This document shows positions 2,046 through 9,310 of a stretch of DNA of 9,310 nt, one piece after another. The stretch comes from Chromatiales bacterium. Its GTDB lineage: Bacteria > Pseudomonadota > Gammaproteobacteria > UBA6429 > Thiohalophilaceae. The notes beneath the pieces were generated by a model that saw only the letters and a list, made by a program, of their open reading frames with translations, was not told the origin of the DNA and made no database searches. A program made the position numbers and the translations under genes. Where the stretch lies: assembly GCA_027057985.1 (NCBI GenBank), contig JALUTJ010000392.1, positions 1 through 9,310 on the forward strand, given 5' to 3'. The stretch's first letter is position 1. Every line of letters begins with the position of its first letter.

Positions 2046-2642
2046 ATGTCAGCTATAAAACCGCTCAGCACGATTCGCGAGGTAAAGGAAAACACCTTTA
2101 TCTTTGAAAAACCGCATTCACTCAGTGATGAACTGTGTGATGAAATGGTACGCCGCTTTGAAGACTCTACTGATGATCACTATGCCGGTCGTATTGGTCA
2201 GACCGCCAATCAGGACAGCAGCATAAAAAAAACTACCGACCTCGTTGTCAGCGGCAAGGAGCACTGGAAAGACATCGACCAGGCGCTGTTTCATTCCCTC
2301 GCCACGGCAATCAAGGAGTTTCGTGAGACTTTTCCTTATTTCAAGGGTCCCTTCAAGGACATGGGCTATGGCATTCAGCGTTACCAGCCCGGTGAATACT
2401 ATCACTGGCATATCGATGGCGGCTCACATGACTTCAGTCAGCGTCAGCTGGTAGCACTGTGGTATCTGAATGATGTCCCCGGTCCCGGTGGTGAAACCGA
2501 ATTCCTGTACCAGGACATTAAAATCAGCCCGAAAAAAGGCAAGCTGGTGTTATTCCCGCCTTTCTGGACCCATGAACATCGGGCTGTGACCGTGAATGAA
2601 GGTGTAAAATATATTGCCACCACCTGGGTTGTCTTTGCCTGA
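2046..2642 (+). CDS. Fe(II)/2-oxoglutarate oxygenase, prolyl-4-hydroxylase type
   Basis: The 198-residue protein has the jelly-roll oxygenase signature. The iron-binding H-x-D is H122-I-D124 (in YHWHIDGG). The distal iron ligand is most likely H178 (in THEHRAV), and K188 ten residues later (GVKYIATTW) fits the lysine that binds the 2-oxoglutarate carboxylate in the prolyl-4-hydroxylase branch. All expected catalytic residues are present, so it should be active. Such enzymes hydroxylate a protein side chain or small molecule using O2 and 2-oxoglutarate; the substrate cannot be told from sequence. The length is normal for a single-domain bacterial member. The ATG start has AGGA six bases upstream. 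It lies 51 bases after the 352-residue gene and 13 bases before the acetyltransferase gene, which suggests one transcript. The protein is predicted to be cytoplasmic. Confidence 0.88.
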   Translation: MSAIKPLSTIREVKENTFIFEKPHSLSDELCDEMVRRFEDSTDDHYAGRIGQTANQDSSIKKTTDLVVSGKEHWKDIDQALFHSLATAIKEFRETFPYFKGPFKDMGYGIQRYQPGEYYHWHIDGGSHDFSQRQLVALWYLNDVPGPGGETEFLYQDIKISPKKGKLVLFPPFWTHEHRAVTVNEGVKYIATTWVVFA

Positions 2643-2655
2643 CTACGACCACGGC

Positions 2656-3087
2656 ATGTTGACTATTGCCACACCCCAAACTGATAAAGAGTTTTCGGAT
2701 TATTATCAGTTGCGCTGGGCGTTATTACGCCAGCCCTGGCAACAACCTCAGGGCAGTGAAAAAGATGAATTTGAATCTCAGGCAATACATCGCTATGCCC
2801 TGCTTGATAATGAGATGGTTGCTGTTGCCCGATTACACACAATAGACAGTAAGTCTGCACAGATTCGTTATATGGCTGTTAAAGCAGAAGTCCAGCGCCA
2901 GGGCATTGCTACAGCGCTACTTACCGAACTTGAGCAACAGGCACGGCAGCAGGAAGTTTCAGAAATTATTCTTCATGCCAGGGAAACTGCGCTGGGTTTT
3001 TATCGAATACACGGTTACAAGGTGATAGAAAAAACACACCTGCTGTACGACGAGATACAACACTTTAAAATGCAAAAAAAACTTTAA
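2656..3087 (+). CDS. GNAT-family N-acetyltransferase
   Basis: From the ATG at 2656 the protein has 143 residues and one GNAT domain. Motif A, the acetyl-CoA pyrophosphate loop, is Q80-R-Q-G83-I-A85 within YMAVKAEVQRQGIATALL. Motif B follows near residues 112-122 (LGFYRIHGYKV). The N-terminal part (DYYQLRWALLRQPW) resembles small ElaA/YitI-like acetyltransferases. The acceptor is unknown. A longer reading frame opens at a TTG at 2614 and overlaps the oxygenase gene. I prefer the ATG at 2656 because the domain starts right there and the overlap disappears; however, no clear ribosome binding site precedes it, so translation may be coupled to the upstream gene, whose stop is 13 bases away. A hairpin follows the stop codon. 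Confidence 0.85.
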   Translation: MLTIATPQTDKEFSDYYQLRWALLRQPWQQPQGSEKDEFESQAIHRYALLDNEMVAVARLHTIDSKSAQIRYMAVKAEVQRQGIATALLTELEQQARQQEVSEIILHARETALGFYRIHGYKVIEKTHLLYDEIQHFKMQKKL

Positions 3088-3145: not shown

Positions 3146-3463
3146 TTAAAGGAAATGAATTTCCTGGATTTCATCGGAAGTGTCGACCACCACACTCTCA
3201 ATCATCGGTGCCTTGCTAAGGATATAGGCAGACATCATGGTAGCGAGATCCATGTTATTCTGCTCCAATGCGGTAACAAGGCGATCTGCCGCAATCTGAC
3301 AACGCTGTTCCGGATTTGGGTTTTCTACCCAGTACCGCCCCATCTGGTAGCCCTTATCGAGATCGGCATCCACCATAGCAAAATAATCCCGTGCTTCTGA
3401 AAGCATGGAGTCCGGTACATTGATATCGGTGCTTTGACCATCAACGGCAATATTCAGTATCAT
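3146..3463 (-). CDS. Small acidic orphan protein, 105 residues
   Basis: I do not recognise this family. The protein is acidic and soluble, with a short N-terminal segment that looks like a beta hairpin (MILNIAVDGQSTDINV). A helical, charged middle follows (about 18-85, including DLDKGYQMGRYWVENPNPEQ and RCQIAADRLVTALEQ), and it ends in ESVVVDTSDEIQEIHFL. It has one cysteine, near residue 54, which does not sit in a recognisable metal or redox motif. The ATG start has AAGGA nine to ten bases upstream. It is divergent from the PKHD-hydroxylase gene over a 92-base spacer and convergent with the acetyltransferase gene. The density of aromatic and glycine positions looks like a constrained family rather than a spurious frame. 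Function is unknown; a link to sulfur oxidation is only suggested by position. Confidence 0.75.
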   Translation of the reverse strand: MILNIAVDGQSTDINVPDSMLSEARDYFAMVDADLDKGYQMGRYWVENPNPEQRCQIAADRLVTALEQNNMDLATMMSAYILSKAPMIESVVVDTSDEIQEIHFL

Positions 3464-3555: not shown

Positions 3556-4230
3556 ATGCTTATAACCATACCCGACGTACTGGATAAACAACGAATTGAT
3601 TTTGTGCAACAGGCACTGGAAAACGCTGACTTTGTCGATGGTACCTTATCTGCGGGTATGGCAGCAAAACGGGTCAAGAATAATGAGGAACTGGCTGCAG
3701 ATGAGAAGCTGATGCAGCAGCTCAATAACATTGTCATGGGCTCTCTGGTACAGAATGAGCAGTTCAAGGCGGCTGCCCTGCCGCTGCGTGTCGCTGCTCC
3801 GTTCTATGCCCGCTATAGCAGTGGTATGACCTATGGTGACCACGTTGATGACCCTGTAATGGGCCCGCCGGGGCAACAGTACCGCACCGATGTCTCAACC
3901 ACGGTATTCCTTAATGAGCCCGACGATTACGAGGGGGGTGAACTGGTGGTACAGACTGCGTATGGCCCACAGAAAGTAAAACTGGCCGCAGGTTCTGCCG
4001 TGGTTTACCCCTCTTCCAGCCTGCACCATGTGGCAGAAGTGACCAAAGGTACCCGCCTTGTTGCCGTTACCTGGACGCAGAGCATGGTACGTGACCCGGC
4101 CAAACGTGAACTGCTTTACCAGATGAACCAGGCACGCGAATCGCTGCTAAAAAAACGCCCGGATGATACCGAAACCCGTCAAATTGATGTTGCTTATGTC
4201 AATTTATTTCGCATGTGGTCCGAGTTATAA
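3556..4230 (+). CDS. piuC: PKHD-type Fe(II)/2-oxoglutarate hydroxylase (PiuC/YbiX family)
   Basis: The 224-residue length matches the family norm of about 225. The iron ligands are H96-V-D98 (in YGDHVDDPVMG) and H157 or H158 (in SSSLHHVAEVTKG), with R167 (GTRLVAVTW) fitting the 2-oxoglutarate arginine. The stretch YRTDVSTTVFLNEPDDYEGG, about 109-128, is typical of the family. All catalytic positions are kept. In Pseudomonas and E. coli relatives the gene sits beside TonB-dependent iron-siderophore receptors (PiuA/Fiu) and is iron-regulated. No receptor gene is present here and no clear Fur box was found, so the role in this organism may differ. The true substrate of the family is poorly known. 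The protein is cytoplasmic. The gene is transcribed alone, divergent from the 105-residue gene, and ends at a strong bidirectional terminator. Confidence 0.92.
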   Translation: MLITIPDVLDKQRIDFVQQALENADFVDGTLSAGMAAKRVKNNEELAADEKLMQQLNNIVMGSLVQNEQFKAAALPLRVAAPFYARYSSGMTYGDHVDDPVMGPPGQQYRTDVSTTVFLNEPDDYEGGELVVQTAYGPQKVKLAAGSAVVYPSSSLHHVAEVTKGTRLVAVTWTQSMVRDPAKRELLYQMNQARESLLKKRPDDTETRQIDVAYVNLFRMWSEL

Positions 4231-4253
4231 AATACTGGATAAAATATTCCAGG

Positions 4254-4288
4254 CATGAAAAAAGGCGCTTAAAGCGCCTTTTTTCATG
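4254..4288. terminator. Strong bidirectional intrinsic terminator
   Basis: A 17-bp perfect inverted repeat (arms 4254-4270 and 4272-4288) has the G/C core ggcgc/gcgcc flanked by six A on the left and six T on the right. It therefore works as a rho-independent terminator in both directions. It lies between the stop of the PKHD-hydroxylase gene (4230) and the stop of the convergent 69-residue gene (4301). Confidence 0.93.
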
Positions 4289-4300
4289 TTCAATAACTGA

Positions 4301-4510
4301 TTAGAACCAGCGACTTGAACCTTTTTCTTTATGAGCCATTTCGTCAACCTTGTTGGCCAGCTCCTGGTACTTCTGGGCATAACCGTTTAAAGGGTGACCT
4401 TCCTGGCCAACGAAGTAGTCTTTCGCATCAACACCATTTTCATGTTCATATTCCATGAATTTCTTTTGCATTTCGAGCATTTCTGCGATTAATTTAGCTT
4501 TTTCACTCAT
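4301..4510 (-). CDS. Small charged orphan protein, 69 residues
   Basis: I do not recognise a named family. The protein is highly charged and mostly helical. An amphipathic helix (SEKAKLIAEMLEMQKKFMEY, 2-21) is followed by a turn-rich middle (about 22-43, with GVDAKDYF and EGHPLNGY) and a second helix (44-62), ending in SSRWF. It has no cysteine, no membrane segment and no signal peptide. The ATG start is preceded by GAGGA at a spacing of about nine bases, a ribosome site almost identical to that of the DsrC-like gene upstream. It lies about 150 bases downstream of the DsrC-like gene on the same strand, and transcription ends at the strong terminator. The clean ribosome site, composition and terminator all support a real gene. 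Function is unknown; a partner for the DsrC-like protein is one guess. Confidence 0.78.
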   Translation of the reverse strand: MSEKAKLIAEMLEMQKKFMEYEHENGVDAKDYFVGQEGHPLNGYAQKYQELANKVDEMAHKEKGSSRWF

Positions 4511-4658: not shown

Positions 4659-4997
4659 TTAGTAACCGCCTTTACGGGTACTTTTTGGCAGACCGGCCAG
4701 TTTACGCCCCTGTTTTGAAGGCATTGCCGGGAACATTTCGTACATGGTCTTGGAGGAAACTTTTTCACCCCATAACTTGCTCATGGCCTTGAGAATGGTA
4801 CGTTCGTTAGGCTCTGCACCGTTGTTATTGACGTGCTCATCACGTAAATACTTCACAACATCCCAGTGACGTTCTGTCATTGGCAGTTCATCAGCATCAG
4901 CCAGTGCCTGTGCCACGTCCAGGTCCCAGTCATTTAAATCTTCCAGGTAACCTTCGTCAGTAGTCGGGATGGTTTTACCGTTTACTTCCAGTGCCAT
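4659..4997 (-). CDS. DsrC/TusE-family protein lacking both redox cysteines
   Basis: The 112-residue protein aligns along its whole length with DsrC. It has the N-terminal V-x-G-K and DEGYLEDLNDWD (14-25), the ERHWDVVKYLRDE segment (42-54) and the C-terminal arm FPAMPSKQGRKLAGLPKST (89-107). In true DsrC this arm carries two cysteines, which form the sulfur-carrying trisulfide with DsrAB; TusE keeps only the last one. Here the first is replaced by R98 and the last by K109, the tail is two residues longer, and no cysteine exists anywhere. It therefore cannot carry sulfur as DsrC does. From memory, cysteine-free members have been called RspA and proposed to be regulatory. The ATG start has GAGGA about eight bases upstream. 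It may be co-transcribed with the 69-residue gene; a 124-base gap separates it from the Cas6-like gene upstream. Confidence 0.92.
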   Translation of the reverse strand: MALEVNGKTIPTTDEGYLEDLNDWDLDVAQALADADELPMTERHWDVVKYLRDEHVNNNGAEPNERTILKAMSKLWGEKVSSKTMYEMFPAMPSKQGRKLAGLPKSTRKGGY

Positions 4998-5121: not shown

Positions 5122-5823
5122 TTAATCATCTGAATTAACTGCTTTAATATCCTTTTGTGGCAGAAAAATACCACAGCCGAGTTTGCGCCCCGGGCCAAGC
5201 CCATGCTGTTGCAGGCGTACCGATTCGGCCTTTTCCATTTCGGCCACCATCAGGCTGCGGGTAACCCGTTTCTCACCACTTTGCAGCGTCACCACCCGCT
5301 CCTTTCCAGCCATCATTTTTCTGACGGGAATATCGAGTTTTTTAAGCTCATCATAGGCCCATTGCAGAAACTGGTTTTCATCCATTTCCTTGTCGATAAG
5401 TATTCCCCGGCAAAACGTGGTTGGCAGATCACTGAGTTGCCTGGTACTGCTTTTACCAATTTCAACTGGATAACCCGCTACCTCGATAGTGGAACCCACC
5501 AGTTCTTCCGCATCTTCAAGCCGCTCTTTGGGCAGGCGCAGGATCATTTTCTGCCGCCGGGAGAGATAGATCAGCTCATCAGGATCGGTACTACGCTCCC
5601 AGCCATTGCCAGACTCAGCACCATTAATCGGGTGAATCCCGGCCAGGGGCTCGTCTTCGAGCCATGGCAGGGCCTGAAACAGGCTTTGTGACAGTGCATC
5701 CATGTGCTCCAGTGGCAGGCATTTACAGCGAATGGCATAGGAAACATCGACAATGTCATCAGGAATAACAAACTCTTCCTTCTTTTTGTCTTCATTCCAG
5801 AACAGATTATTCGTCTCTGACAT
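5122..5823 (-). CDS. Cas6/Cmx6-like RAMP protein, not linked to a CRISPR array
   Basis: The 233-residue protein resembles the Cas6/Cmx6 (type I-MYXAN) family as I remember it. Landmarks in order are DVSYAIRCKCLP (26-37), ALPWL...GIHPI (51-66), YLSRRQKMILRLPKERL (86-102), the beta segment VAGYPVEIG (115-123), SLMVAEMEKAESVRLQQHGL (190-209), and the glycine-rich loop GLGPGRKLGCGIFLPQK (208-224), the hallmark of RAMP-fold RNA-binding proteins. H64 in GIHPI or H40 are possible catalytic histidines, but this is inference. The family's usual PHK near the end is PQK here, as far as I recall. Cas6 enzymes cut CRISPR precursor RNA; no repeat array or other cas gene is in the window, so another RNA role is possible. 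The ATG start has AGGG upstream. It is the last gene of an operon, 13 bases after the 62-residue gene. Confidence 0.72.
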   Translation of the reverse strand: MSETNNLFWNEDKKKEEFVIPDDIVDVSYAIRCKCLPLEHMDALSQSLFQALPWLEDEPLAGIHPINGAESGNGWERSTDPDELIYLSRRQKMILRLPKERLEDAEELVGSTIEVAGYPVEIGKSSTRQLSDLPTTFCRGILIDKEMDENQFLQWAYDELKKLDIPVRKMMAGKERVVTLQSGEKRVTRSLMVAEMEKAESVRLQQHGLGPGRKLGCGIFLPQKDIKAVNSDD

Positions 5824-5836
5824 GATAAAAACCCTG

Positions 5837-6025
5837 TTATCGTGTAGAGGTAAAGGCAGATTCGAGCTGTTCTTCCCAGTCTTCCGGGGTATCGACGAAA
5901 GGTGGTTTCACATCCATGCGAAAGAACATCTCCCCGGATTTGCCCTTCTCGCTGATCACTTCTGCCAGTTCTTTAAAAGATTCAATTTCGTGTCCCTCTA
6001 AAAGGACTTCACTTAACCACAACAT
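5837..6025 (-). CDS. Small acidic orphan protein, 62 residues
   Basis: I do not recognise this family. The protein is acidic. It starts with a short hydrophobic strand (MLWLSEVLLEG), followed by a helix (ESFKELAEVISEKG, about 15-28), a strand EMFFRMDVKPPF (32-43) and a helical tail (TPEDWEEQLESAF, 46-58). No cysteine or metal motif is seen, and the first residues are too few and too acidic to be a signal peptide. It is real by context: an ATG with AGGA about nine bases upstream, 18 bases after the TauD-type gene and 13 bases before the Cas6-like gene, all on one strand. Tight spacing suggests co-expression and perhaps a complex with the Cas6-like protein, but this is inference. Confidence 0.75.
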   Translation of the reverse strand: MLWLSEVLLEGHEIESFKELAEVISEKGKSGEMFFRMDVKPPFVDTPEDWEEQLESAFTSTR

Positions 6026-6043: not shown

Positions 6044-6982
6044 TCAGGATATTCGTGACTGAATATCATTGTAAGTTGTCTTTGCCAGGCGATCATAGAA
6101 ACGCCCGCGGTAAATCAGCCGGTGCTGACCGGTTTCATCATCATCTTCGAAGCCGGTTCGGTTATGTAGCACGTTATTGCAAACTAGTCCCTGCCCCGGC
6201 TCCAGGCGATGCCTGAATATCCAGGGTGAATCGCTGGCAAGAAAATCATCCATTGCCTGAACCGCTTCCCGGGTAACTTCATTATCAGTCCAGATAATAT
6301 TGCGTTTGCGAGCACTGTAACGCATATGCAGGCTGCCACCACAGGCATCCACCGAAAATACCGGGCCGGTCTGTGCTCCGCGAATCTCCACACCATTTTC
6401 AATATTGGCTGGAATCGTCATCACATCTTCTTCCATGAGTGCTGATATATAGGCCGGATTGCGATCTCTCAAGTGAATATAAAGCATTTCATGGTCCACC
6501 AGCGCATTTTCACCACCTCGGGCGGCCGGGCTGACGCAATGCAGTACGATCGAGCGTATCTGTTGCTCGGGTAAATTGTAATAACCGTCCGTATGCCAGC
6601 TGAGTTTCAGGTTACTATAAGGGATATAGCCCTGTTGACGACCATTTTCCATGACCTGAAGCGACGTAATACTGTCATTATCTGCTCCCAGGTTCTTGTC
6701 CAGGCGCTCGATGCCGAGCTGCCGGCCAATAGATTCAACAATTTTCTTGTCGGCAATATCAGAGACATTATTAATAGTATAGATGGCCATGTTGGCGCGG
6801 ATAAAGCACTCATTCAGGCGTGCCTTTTCATTCTGACCAAGAGAAAACGGGTTATCAATTTCCACCAGCAGTTCTTCAGCTGCAGCAGGATAAACCGATA
6901 TTTTCCAGTCACGCCACTGCTGGTAGGCCGCTTCTGCATCTGGGTGCAGCGAAAAGGGAGAATCTGTCGTGACAATATTCAT
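6044..6982 (-). CDS. TauD/TfdA-family Fe(II)/2-oxoglutarate dioxygenase
   Basis: The 312-residue protein has the TauD fold signature. The facial triad is H130-T-D132 (in LSWHTDGYYN) and H273 (in NNVLHNRTGF). R288 (QHRLIYRGRFYDR), fifteen residues after the distal histidine, is the expected 2-oxoglutarate arginine. The stretch SPAARGGENALVDHEMLY (151-168) is also typical. Length and catalytic residues are normal, so it is likely active. TauD relatives release sulfite from taurine or alkylsulfonates, but others act on quite different substrates. With no sulfonate transporter nearby, the substrate is open. Placement next to dsrAB makes an organosulfur substrate attractive but unproven. It is the first gene of the operon with the 62-residue and Cas6-like genes, divergent from dsrA. 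The ATG lacks a clear ribosome binding site. Confidence 0.9.
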   Translation of the reverse strand: MNIVTTDSPFSLHPDAEAAYQQWRDWKISVYPAAAEELLVEIDNPFSLGQNEKARLNECFIRANMAIYTINNVSDIADKKIVESIGRQLGIERLDKNLGADNDSITSLQVMENGRQQGYIPYSNLKLSWHTDGYYNLPEQQIRSIVLHCVSPAARGGENALVDHEMLYIHLRDRNPAYISALMEEDVMTIPANIENGVEIRGAQTGPVFSVDACGGSLHMRYSARKRNIIWTDNEVTREAVQAMDDFLASDSPWIFRHRLEPGQGLVCNNVLHNRTGFEDDDETGQHRLIYRGRFYDRLAKTTYNDIQSRIS

Positions 6983-7245: not shown

Positions 7246-7365
7246 ACGTCTTTTTTAAAGACCAACAGCAAGCGTGAATTTTGTATTGTGATGCAGCAGG
7301 ACGATTTGGATCAGGTGAACTATACCCACAATGGGATAAGATCACCCATTCGAATCCCCCATCAG

Positions 7366-7381
7366 TGTGATTCTCGTCACG
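7366..7381. promoter_or_regulatory. CRP-like palindrome upstream of dsrA
   Basis: The bases TGTGA-N6-TCACG match the CRP consensus TGTGA-N6-TCACA at nine of ten half-site positions. The centre lies about 200 bases before the dsrA start and about 140 bases before the proposed -35 box. A CRP/FNR-superfamily regulator could bind here; the site is far for simple activation of the proximal promoter. Confidence 0.35.
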
Positions 7382-7511
7382 CACAGGGGCACATAGACTG
7401 CGTCGCAACTGAAAAAGTACTGTCGTTATGGTTTTGAACCCAATATTGTGTGGGTACAGAGTTATAACAACACAAGAAGTGGGTGGTTATTACCGCTGGT
7501 AGTGACTACAC

Positions 7512-7541
7512 TTGATAACTTTAATTTCGAAAATTTATAAC
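7512..7541 (+). promoter_or_regulatory. Probable sigma70 promoter of dsrA
   Basis: TTGATA (7512-7517), an 18-base spacer and TATAAC (7536-7541) fit a sigma70-type promoter. Transcription would start near 7548, giving a leader of under 30 bases that contains the strong ribosome binding site AGGAG (7564-7568), six bases before the dsrA ATG. Confidence 0.5.
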
Positions 7542-7574: not shown

Positions 7575-8834
7575 ATGTCAAAAGCTACGATTCATGACAC
7601 ACCAATGCTGGATGAACTGGAAAAAGGTCCATGGCCTTCATTCATTTCAGGCTTCAAACGTCTTCGTGACGACCATCCAAGTGAACGCATCAACAAAGCT
7701 GTTGGTGACTTACTCGGTCAATTAGAACACTCTTACGAAACCCGTAAAGGTTACTGGAAAGGTGGTACCGTATCAGTATTCGGTTACGGTGGTGGTATCA
7801 TTCCACGTTTCTCAGAAGTTGGTGACGCATTCCCTGAATCAAAAGAATTCCACACTTTACGTGTACAGCCTTCACCAGGTAACTACTACACTACAGACAT
7901 GATGAACCAACTGGCTGACAGCTGGGAAAAATACGGTTCTGGTCTGATTACCTTCCACGGTCAAACCGGTAACATCATGTTCATCGGTACTGACACTGAA
8001 AACACTCAGCACTTCTTTGATGAAATCAACGAATACGGCTGGGATCTGGGTGGTGCTGGTCCTTGTGTACGTACTGCTATGTCCTGTGTTGGTGCTGCTC
8101 GTTGTGAACAGTCCTGTGCAAACGAACACGCCATTCACCGTCACCTGGTAAATGAATTTGTTGATGACGTTCACCGTCCGGCCCTGCCATACAAGTTCAA
8201 GTTCAAAGTTTCTGGTTGTCCAAACGATTGTCAGAACTCTATTGAACGTTCTGACTTTGCTGTAATTGGTACATGGCGTGATGACATGAAAATCGATCAG
8301 GCTGAAGTCAAGAACTTCATCGAAGCCAAAGGTCGTCAATATGTTATCGACAACGTAATTACTCGTTGCCCAACTAACTGTATGACTCTGTCTGATAACG
8401 ACGAACTGACTGTTGATAATCACAACTGTGTTCGTTGCATGCACTGTCTGAATGTTATGAATAAAGCCCTGTCTCCTGGAGATGACAAAGGTGTTACTGT
8501 TCTTATCGGTGGTAAGCGTACACTGAAGATCGGTGACCTGATGGGTACCGTTGTCGTTCCATTCAAGAAGCTGGAAACTGCTGAAGATTACGAAGAACTG
8601 GTTGAACTGGCTGGTGACGTTATCGACTTCTTCGCTGAAAATGCACTTGAGCACGAACGTACTGGTGAAATGATTGAACGTATCGGCCTGGTTAACTTCC
8701 TCGAAGGTGTTGGTATCGAAGTTGACCCACACATGGTTAACAACCCACGTCAGGTCTCTTATGTTCGTATGGACGGTTGGGACGAAGAAGCTAAGAAATG
8801 GTTTGAACGCAAAGCTGAAGAAGCAACTGCGTAA
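7575..8834 (+). CDS. dsrA: Reverse-type dissimilatory sulfite reductase, alpha subunit
   Basis: The 419-residue protein is a full-length DsrA. The siroheme/[4Fe-4S] cysteines are C171-x5-C177 and C215-x3-C219 (in SGCPNDCQNS). The inserted ferredoxin domain has C265-x3-C269 and C285-x2-C288-x2-C291 (in NCVRCMHCLN), which supply a second [4Fe-4S] cluster. The N-terminal YETRKGYWKGGTVSVFGYGG and LRVQPSPGNYYTT are typical of the alpha subunit. In sulfur oxidisers the cytoplasmic alpha2beta2 enzyme, with DsrC, oxidises sulfane sulfur to sulfite; the oxidative type is inferred from overall similarity and the DsrC-like and proteobacterial context. AGGAG lies six bases before the ATG. Codon use is strongly biased (CGT, GGT, GTT, GAA), unlike the genes to its left, as expected for a very highly expressed enzyme. 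dsrB follows after 54 bases. Confidence 0.97.
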   Translation: MSKATIHDTPMLDELEKGPWPSFISGFKRLRDDHPSERINKAVGDLLGQLEHSYETRKGYWKGGTVSVFGYGGGIIPRFSEVGDAFPESKEFHTLRVQPSPGNYYTTDMMNQLADSWEKYGSGLITFHGQTGNIMFIGTDTENTQHFFDEINEYGWDLGGAGPCVRTAMSCVGAARCEQSCANEHAIHRHLVNEFVDDVHRPALPYKFKFKVSGCPNDCQNSIERSDFAVIGTWRDDMKIDQAEVKNFIEAKGRQYVIDNVITRCPTNCMTLSDNDELTVDNHNCVRCMHCLNVMNKALSPGDDKGVTVLIGGKRTLKIGDLMGTVVVPFKKLETAEDYEELVELAGDVIDFFAENALEHERTGEMIERIGLVNFLEGVGIEVDPHMVNNPRQVSYVRMDGWDEEAKKWFERKAEEATA

Positions 8835-8888: not shown

Positions 8889-9310
8889 ATGGCTCTTGAA
8901 GATATGCGTTCACCGATTGAATCTGGTTGCCCAGACGGCTTCCAGTATATGCATCCAACAATGCGTAAAAACTTCGGTCAGTGGAAATATCATGAACATC
9001 CACGTCCAGGCGTATTACTACACGTTGCTCACAGTGGTGACAAAATCTGGACTGTAAAAGCTGGTACTCAGCGTATTCTTGATGTTTACACCTTACGTAA
9101 GCTGACTGAAATCGGTGACAAGTTTGCTGATGGTTACATCCGCTTTACTTTACGTTCAAACATCGAGTACATGGTCACTGATGAGGCTAAAGTTGAACCT
9201 TTAATCAAGGCTCTGGAAGATGCTGGCTTTATCGTTGGTGGTACTGCAAACTCTGTTGCTATGCTGTCACACACTCAGGGCTGGTTACACTGTGATATCC
9301 CAGGTACTGA
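8889..9310 (+). CDS. dsrB: Dissimilatory sulfite reductase, beta subunit (5' part)
   Basis: The frame opens at ATG 8889 and reaches the window edge after 140 full codons, so the 3' part is missing. The start MALEDMRSPIESGCPDGFQY and the segment MRKNFGQWKYHEHPRPGVL are characteristic of DsrB. The later KIWTVKAGTQRILDVYTLRK and FTLRSNIEYMV belong to the first sulfite-reductase half domain; the beta-subunit cluster cysteines lie beyond the edge. AGGAG (8878-8882) is six bases upstream, nearly the same layout as for dsrA, and codon bias is equally strong. It pairs with DsrA to form the alpha2beta2 enzyme and is surely co-transcribed with it. No sign of a defect is seen in the visible part. Confidence 0.96.
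   Translation, partial: MALEDMRSPIESGCPDGFQYMHPTMRKNFGQWKYHEHPRPGVLLHVAHSGDKIWTVKAGTQRILDVYTLRKLTEIGDKFADGYIRFTLRSNIEYMVTDEAKVEPLIKALEDAGFIVGGTANSVAMLSHTQGWLHCDIPGT

Follow-up and report, generated by a model that had tools for sequence, protein, structure and literature searches.

A Cas6 relative linked to dsrA, and not to CRISPR, in Gammaproteobacteria

Introduction

The established role of Cas6 is to make CRISPR guide RNAs, and the question raised by the locus described here is what a Cas6-like gene does when it stands beside dsrAB. The gene, which we call cas6L (product Cas6L), lies on a contig of a Chromatiales bacterium (JALUTJ010000392.1, assembly GCA_027057985.1), all 9310 bases of which were analysed and are referred to below as the window. 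An original prediction, made without database searches, regarded Cas6L as a Cas6/Cmx6-like RNA endonuclease homologue recruited for an RNA task linked to sulfur oxidation. On the basis of counts across genomes we find that Cas6L is a Cas6 relative that serves the dsr pathway and not CRISPR, and we tentatively suggest that it could be a non-cleaving, RNA-binding regulator of dsr that would grip the leader hairpins of the dsrAB mRNA transcribed divergently from cas6L.

Results

Cas6L belongs to the Cas6 family

The cas6L open reading frame (ORF) encodes 233 residues from an ATG start. Searches against Cas6/Cmx6 profiles gave 114.7 bits with TIGR02807 (equivalog cut-off 98.85) and 184.2 bits with PF09559 (cut-off 26.7), both curated cut-offs being exceeded, and six PADLOC Cas6 models matched at 5.5e-16 or better (best 7.7e-55). 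TIGR02807 was also matched at 1e-3 or better by all 33 aligned members of the cas6L family. The predicted structure has the two-domain RAMP fold of Cas6 and matches Cas6 strongly in a comparison based on the 50 VIA-align matches listed. The C-terminal glycine-rich RAMP loop that had been noticed at first sight corresponds to residues 208-220 (GLGPGRKLGCGIF), where G208, G210 and G216-C-G218 are retained and G210, R213, G216, C217 and G218 are invariant among the aligned members. Both sequence and model place Cas6L in the Cas6 family, as originally claimed, and it shares this family (TIGR02807, PF09559, 8fcj_B) with the CRISPR-type Cas6 of type I-B CRISPR-associated transposons, Cmx6. A database search at E 1e-3 matched 1795 proteins to Cas6L, few of the 120 listed bearing a source name, and NCBI names some members type I-MYXAN Cas6/Cmx6. 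Because the gene recurs in 118 of 369 genomes of the class, a chance ORF is excluded.

cas6L tracks dsrA and not Cas1

A single-sequence scan of genome contigs gave two loci, and the distribution was taken from searches of genome samples, beginning with 58 relatives, 34 of which carry cas6L. In the class sample of 369 genomes, in which dsrA was called at 1e-60, cas6L is present in 118 and dsrA in 117, with both in 110, cas6L only in 8 and dsrA only in 7 (Fisher p=1.5e-74). Of the 110 genomes with both, 82 have the two genes on the same contig and 28 on different ones; 80 of the 82 same-contig pairs are within 6 kb of each other, always on opposite strands, with a median gap of 1,686 bp. By co-occurrence and by co-location with dsrA, cas6L is thus a gene of the reverse-dsr locus. 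Nine of the 15 genomes with one gene only have it at contig ends, which lie near on the dsrA side in three cas6L-only genomes (G103, G162, G351) and at most 2 kb away on the module side in six dsrA-only genomes (G106, G115, G146, G159, G242, G388). A tenth (G254) has a partial dsrA in the locus, the cas6L-only genome G333 has a DsrC-family gene at the place expected for dsrA, and G129, G221, G352 and G246 remain.

Cas1, called at 1e-5, is present in 133 of the 369 genomes, namely in 49 of the 118 with cas6L versus 84 of the 251 without (p=0.16). Eight of the twelve one-contig genomes with cas6L that were listed have no Cas1, and none of these eight has a RAMP protein of PF03787. Five genomes of 1.0-1.1 Mb (G075, G177, G289, G321, G384) carry both cas6L and dsrA and no Cas1. 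A search for the Cas3 core gave nothing above the cut-off in nine genomes, a weak test given that the source genome, which has Cas2-3f, failed it as well.

The immediate surroundings of cas6L are likewise free of CRISPR genes. A search of the window for array-like direct repeats gave none, and a PADLOC scan of ten of its other ORFs matched no core cas family, in agreement with what had been noted from the window at the outset; the PADLOC model '2OG', labelled CAS-associated, matches the two 2-oxoglutarate (2OG) oxygenase ORFs at 2046-2642 and 3556-4230. An adjacent type I locus as the explanation of cas6L was checked and, on a contig that ends with the window, not found. The source genome does have type I-F genes (Cas1f, Cas2-3f and a partial Cas8f), but on another contig (L184), with their Cas6f/Csy4 (PF09618, 206.6 bits) on yet another, and where relatives have longer contigs, cas6L is flanked by dsr and module genes. 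Linkage to an array and cas genes was thus absent in the window, in the neighbourhoods and, for Cas1, genome-wide. On contig L184 the type I-F genes are cut by the contig end, and a WYL-domain gene precedes cas1.

We therefore rejected a CRISPR role for cas6L on the Cas1, RAMP-family and Csy4 tests, the Cas3 test being weak. That cas6L is a displaced cas gene whose product matures CRISPR guide RNA in trans is suggested by the passing of the TIGR02807 equivalog cut-off, by the type I-MYXAN names given to some members and by the type I-F genes in the source genome. Yet the distribution contradicts this explanation and leaves it next to no credence, since cas6L shows no association with Cas1 and a near one-to-one occurrence with dsrA, persists in eight one-contig genomes that have neither Cas1 nor PF03787 RAMPs, and shares its source genome with I-F genes that have a Cas6f of their own.

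A conserved gene set surrounds cas6L

The divergence from dsrAB reported for the window is borne out by dsrA and the start of dsrB, which are on the plus strand from 7575. The three-gene operon ascribed to cas6L is partly right: sm62, encoding a 62-residue protein, and tauD lie upstream on the same strand, separated by gaps of 13 (cas6L/sm62) and 18 (sm62/tauD) nucleotides, but the set extends further, to a DsrC paralogue and a 69-residue gene (p69). Gene order was counted for eight gene families across 109 cas6L loci, from which L108, a duplicate of L031, had been removed. The next recognised gene upstream of cas6L is sm62 in 96 of the 109 loci and the next downstream is a DsrC-family gene in 94, divergent dsrA is found upstream in 98, and 75 loci contain dsrA, tauD, sm62, cas6L and the DsrC-family gene together, many of the others being cut by contig ends or by the fetched range. 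As a side observation, in one family with genomes of 1.4-1.6 Mb (G145, loci L159/L160; G359) cas6L is at least 41 kb from dsrA, and within 9 kb around cas6L of G145 neither sm62 nor a DsrC-like gene was found.

The downstream DsrC-family neighbour is distinctive. Its product ends in KGGY in 91 of the 94 loci, the other three ORFs being cut short, and 86 of these 91 paralogues lack cysteine throughout their last 15 residues, while four have a cysteine in a GGCP motif. By contrast, among the 31 genes of this family that share the strand of dsrA, 29 encode a cysteine within the last 12 residues. The paralogue belongs to the same family as DsrC/TusE, but because the KGGY end replaces the cysteine tail of DsrC, it is likely unable to carry sulfur as DsrC does. 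Such paralogues go by the name RspA. Family searches gave nothing convincing for p69 and no convincing Pfam family for sm62 (weak MinC_N matches in 3 of 24 sequences, best 0.0043), and the sm62 model (predicted local distance difference test score 87.7) matched nothing in PDB at E 0.001. PMC7596348 credits Lenk et al. 2012 with the name dsrQ for TauD genes beside dsr clusters and transcribed against them, and the tauD gene of the window is evidently of this kind; PMC7596348 contains no word beginning with Cas6.

Outside the class the module is only partly present. In a phylum sample of 349 genomes, dsrA was found in 52 and cas6L in four, and these four are exactly the dsrA genomes marked as belonging to the window's own or the same class. 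For a comparison without cas6L we drew on 20 of the remaining 48 dsrA genomes, with a single dsrA upstream region per genome. Four regions, from other classes (L186, L188, L189, L190), have divergent tauD and sm62 with no cas6L or DsrC-like gene within about 4.5 kb, and the other 16 have none of the module (L187 extends only about 1.2 kb upstream). The tauD-sm62 pair without cas6L in these four indicates that the pair is wider in range and that cas6L was added or kept in this class; sm62 may thus belong to an older core. In three same-class genomes of the phylum sample (L161-L163) cas6L is shorter, and we call this form the betaproteobacterial type after the names borne by close relatives of the L161 protein (Thiobacillus, Hydrogenophilaceae, Gallionellaceae and Burkholderiales). 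In this type cas6L adjoins dsrA and is followed by a DsrC-family gene ending in KGGY, which in L163 has a cysteine at the position of the first tail cysteine of DsrC.

Cas6L has probably given up cleavage

We compared the dsr-linked family with a CRISPR-type set (P0121-P0228) defined by kinship with 8fcj_B and by names, and not by locus; counts of residues and isoelectric points (pI) over 110 dsr-linked members include L108. The column of E56 is histidine in 21 of 21 CRISPR-type relatives and in 2 of 110 dsr-linked members, and a second comparison gave histidine in 25/25 CRISPR-type versus 0/27 betaproteobacterial-type sequences. We take this column to be the catalytic position from its conservation and from its presumed correspondence to H46 of PfuCas6; the histidine of the CRISPR-type members is thus lacking in Cas6L. 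Column 45 is tyrosine in 19 of 21 CRISPR-type and in 5 of 110 dsr-linked sequences, and positions 188-189 read GF or GY in 21/21 CRISPR-type relatives versus TR in most members of the gammaproteobacterial (gamma) type. In the other direction, the dsr-linked proteins have gained R90 (gamma 106/106, betaproteobacterial 27/27, CRISPR-type 5/25) and K224 (101/106, 27/27 and 3/25), and the gamma type carries an ESGNGW insert with an invariant tryptophan that is absent from the 25 CRISPR-type and 27 betaproteobacterial-type sequences compared. An N-terminal FWxED tail further sets Cas6L apart from the type I-B transposon Cas6/Cmx6, as do its tracking of dsrA instead of Cas1, the absence of the histidine and of most tyrosines from its family, and that family's acidity. 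R96 and the glycine-rich loop are retained as in CRISPR-type members.

A midpoint-rooted tree built from 158 sequences unites the 133 dsr-linked sequences in one clade (support 0.68, branch 0.97) and the gamma members in another (support 0.77), while the 25 CRISPR-type sequences form no clade in this rooting. We infer that the dsr-linked family descends from a CRISPR Cas6, rather than the reverse.

From these residues, loss of cleavage in Cas6L appears likely. Histidine loss does not prove Cas6L inactive: SsoCas6, which resembles Cas6L in lacking the canonical catalytic histidine, is still able to cleave (PMC3652601). The same paper describes SsoCas6 as a dimeric enzyme that processes CRISPR RNA (crRNA) and has a positively charged face, whereas the dsr-linked family is acidic and has a distribution unlike that of a crRNA role. 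H40 and H64 are retained in 109 and 105 of the 110 dsr-linked members, so that cleavage by another histidine could still occur, and Cas6L might be an active endoribonuclease that uses H40 to cut a hairpin in the dsr leader, where hairpins are indeed predicted (see below), or elsewhere in dsr mRNA. We consider such an enzyme unlikely: the CRISPR-type histidine and the column-45 tyrosine are nearly gone (although the betaproteobacterial type has Y or F at column 45 in 23 of 27), the protein is acidic, and the H40 column is asparagine in 10 of 21 CRISPR-type relatives, which by conservation argues that it is not their catalytic residue. Thus, of the recruitment originally proposed, a Cas6 relative linked to dsr with no adjoining CRISPR locus stands, and the designation as an RNA endonuclease is not supported, with the reservation that SsoCas6 imposes.

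A candidate RNA ligand in the dsrA leader

A leader could be excised from 53 of 100 dsrA upstream regions (the set includes L108). Consensus folding in nine groups of relatives gave z-scores of -8.5 (the genus of the window), -6.8, -6.5, -4.0, -2.4, -1.5, -1.5, -0.3 and +0.3. When the four best of the nine groups were folded in both senses, the dsrA-sense strand had the lower z in 4/4 (-8.0, -8.0, -6.6, -3.6), and DNA further upstream in these groups gave no folding signal. In the five genomes of the window's genus the leader forms two predicted helices (P1 and P2, Table 1) of 36 pairs, with 92.8% of cells paired and seven pairs that have changes on both sides, a number reached by 4 of 500 shuffles and by none of the slid partners (0-3). 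Over the last 150 nucleotides before dsrA, four cas6L-less groups gave z of -0.52, +0.30, +0.36 and +0.54, whereas the two gamma groups with the strongest folding gave -6.3 and -6.4, a correlation between folding and cas6L presence that has phylogeny in it and is not a measure of binding. Hairpins in the dsrA leader are conserved in several lineages.

On the basis that cas6L tracks dsrA, has kept the glycine-rich loop and R96 of its family and stands divergent to a leader predicted to fold, we lean, with less than even confidence, towards a regulator of dsr mRNA. Cas6L would derive from CRISPR Cas6, with the fold and the glycine-rich loop retained and cleavage likely given up; it would bind the hairpin leader of the divergent dsr mRNA, the KGGY-tailed DsrC paralogue would report the sulfur state to it, and its binding would tune the stability or translation of that mRNA. 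We infer both RNA as the ligand and the leader as that RNA, and leader control with them.

Several observations weigh against this regulator. cas6L is 41 kb from dsrA in G145 and 517 kb in G359, and in G093 it is on another contig though dsrA has 30 kb of contig before it. The gamma type has lost GF/GY, although the betaproteobacterial type has G in 27/27, mostly followed by Y. Cas6L is acidic (computed pI 5.06 and net charge -9, from residue 7 on), as is its family, with a mean pI of 6.01 (n=110) versus 8.93 in the CRISPR-type set (n=103). Folded singly, the 53 leaders gave a weak signal (mean z -1.27, complement -0.69; DNA further upstream -0.54, n=52). Five of the nine consensus groups have z above -4, four of these at -1.5 or weaker and some poorly aligned; in the strand control the complement also scores (-4.2, -6.8, -3.5, -0.9) and in one group has the lower energy. 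The cas6L-less control groups are phylogenetically distinct as well, and only half of them are adequately aligned (66 and 72% identity), the other two having poor alignments (37 and 47%). Inspection revealed no sequence common to the hairpins of different lineages.

The acidic charge makes binding to proteins alone almost as likely a role as the RNA regulator. Without any RNA role, Cas6L might form a complex with sm62 and the KGGY paralogue for the assembly, plugging or regulation of DsrAB or of the DsrEFH-DsrC sulfur relay, a possibility that we hold somewhat improbable and that fits the position of the DsrC-family gene as next downstream neighbour, also in the betaproteobacterial type, and the new gamma-type insert with its invariant tryptophan. 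It sits less well with the retention of the glycine-rich loop and R96 as in CRISPR-type members, and with the conserved hairpins in the divergent leader. More doubtful is a wider form of the RNA regulator, according to which a single early gammaproteobacterial domestication of a CRISPR protein would have yielded, from Cas6L, sm62 and the KGGY paralogue, a sulfur-relay sensor gripping the dsr-leader hairpin that is kept as a core part of the pathway in the 1.0-1.1 Mb genomes.

Discussion

The cas6-dsr neighbourhood has already been drawn in print, likely for cas6L. In a 2023 paper on metagenome-assembled genomes (MAGs) of the mangrove rhizosphere (PMC10989796), the legend of Figure 3B gives 'cas6' a colour in maps of dissimilatory sulfur genes; Burkholderiales and Chromatiales are among the MAGs of the set. 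That legend is the single place where the paper names cas6; its section 10 concludes nothing from the gene, and its main text holds no word beginning with CRISPR. Other open papers that mention both dsrAB and cas6 deal, in their cas6 passages, with CRISPR systems apart from dsr genes. Our search of the open literature, with subscription papers outside it, revealed no paper treating the cas6-dsr link, and we make no claim that it is unpublished.

If the proposed role is true, Cas6L, which accompanies a main sulfur-oxidation enzyme of Gammaproteobacteria almost without exception, would clearly exemplify the recruitment of a CRISPR protein to energy metabolism. It would also mean that the name 'type I-MYXAN Cas6/Cmx6', where given to proteins of sulfur oxidizers, should be re-examined before CRISPR systems are called from it. 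A further question that arises is which RNA-binding protein controls dsr transcripts, and in what way.

Further features of the window

Table 1. Positions of cas6L, its neighbours and the dsrA leader and promoter elements in the window.
Feature	Positions	Strand	Basis or remark
p69, 69-residue conserved protein	4301-4510	minus	conserved in relatives
DsrC/TusE-family paralogue, tail STRKGGY	4659-4997	minus	profile match, tail alignment
cas6L, Cas6-family protein	5122-5823	minus	ORF list, profile matches, predicted structure
Glycine-rich RAMP loop, residues 208-220	5164-5202	minus	alignment of 33 members
ESGNGWER insert, residues 70-77, gamma type	5593-5616	minus	W75 in 106/106
E56 codon	5656-5658	minus	column of the CRISPR-type histidine
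sm62, 62-residue conserved protein	5837-6025	minus	adjoins cas6L upstream
TauD-type dioxygenase gene	6044-6982	minus	PF02668
Palindrome TATACCC-ACAAT-GGGATA	7321-7338	plus	conserved promoter element
Second promoter element around CCCCATCAGTG	7356-7380	plus	conservation
TAGACT, taken as -10 box	7394-7399	plus	inferred
Hairpin P1, dsrA leader	7421-7472	plus	predicted
Hairpin P2, dsrA leader	7477-7513	plus	predicted; five pairs with changes on both sides, five genomes
dsrA, first gene of divergent operon	7575-8834	plus	TIGR02064, 627.5 bits
dsrB start, cut by window end	8889-9310	plus	TIGR02066, 183.3 bits, profile positions 2-117 of 341

Upstream of the leader stand the palindrome TATAYCC-N5-GGGATA and the element CACCCCATCAGT. 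An earlier reading of this conserved block as an RNA element was dropped, and we read it as promoter or operator DNA because it precedes a TAGACT/TAGAAT/TACAAT box. Within the last 300 nucleotides before dsrA in 96 class loci (the betaproteobacterial type left out), the palindrome was found in 51, the CACCCCATCAGT element in 39 and both in 28, versus 1, 2 and 0 in the shuffled control; in the 20 cas6L-less genomes neither was found, alone or together. The window copy is the sole perfect TATANCCN5GGGATA in the source genome, where copies with at most one mismatch number nine versus five for the reversed control pattern. These elements may be the binding site of a DsrC-family or other regulator. 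One such one-mismatch copy (L177, G000:C222:1195-1212) lies just before an ORF that by eye resembles a LysR-type regulator.

Beside the module, at positions kept in many relatives, are genes for a PKHD-type 2OG oxygenase (3556-4230), a 105-residue protein (3146-3463), an acetyltransferase-like protein (2614-3087), a second 2OG-oxygenase-like protein (2046-2642) and a DUF6866 protein (936-1994). An Rfam scan of the window found no family at its gathering score; ten of 13 weak matches fall at 4147-4345, around an inverted repeat (4254-4288, GGCGCTTTAAGCGCC) that has A and T runs at its flanks, stands between two convergent genes and looks like a two-way terminator. Finally, two 25-nucleotide near-copies (80%) of CTCAAGTATTGCAGAGCCGACAAAA occupy positions 2-26 and 158-182 of the window.
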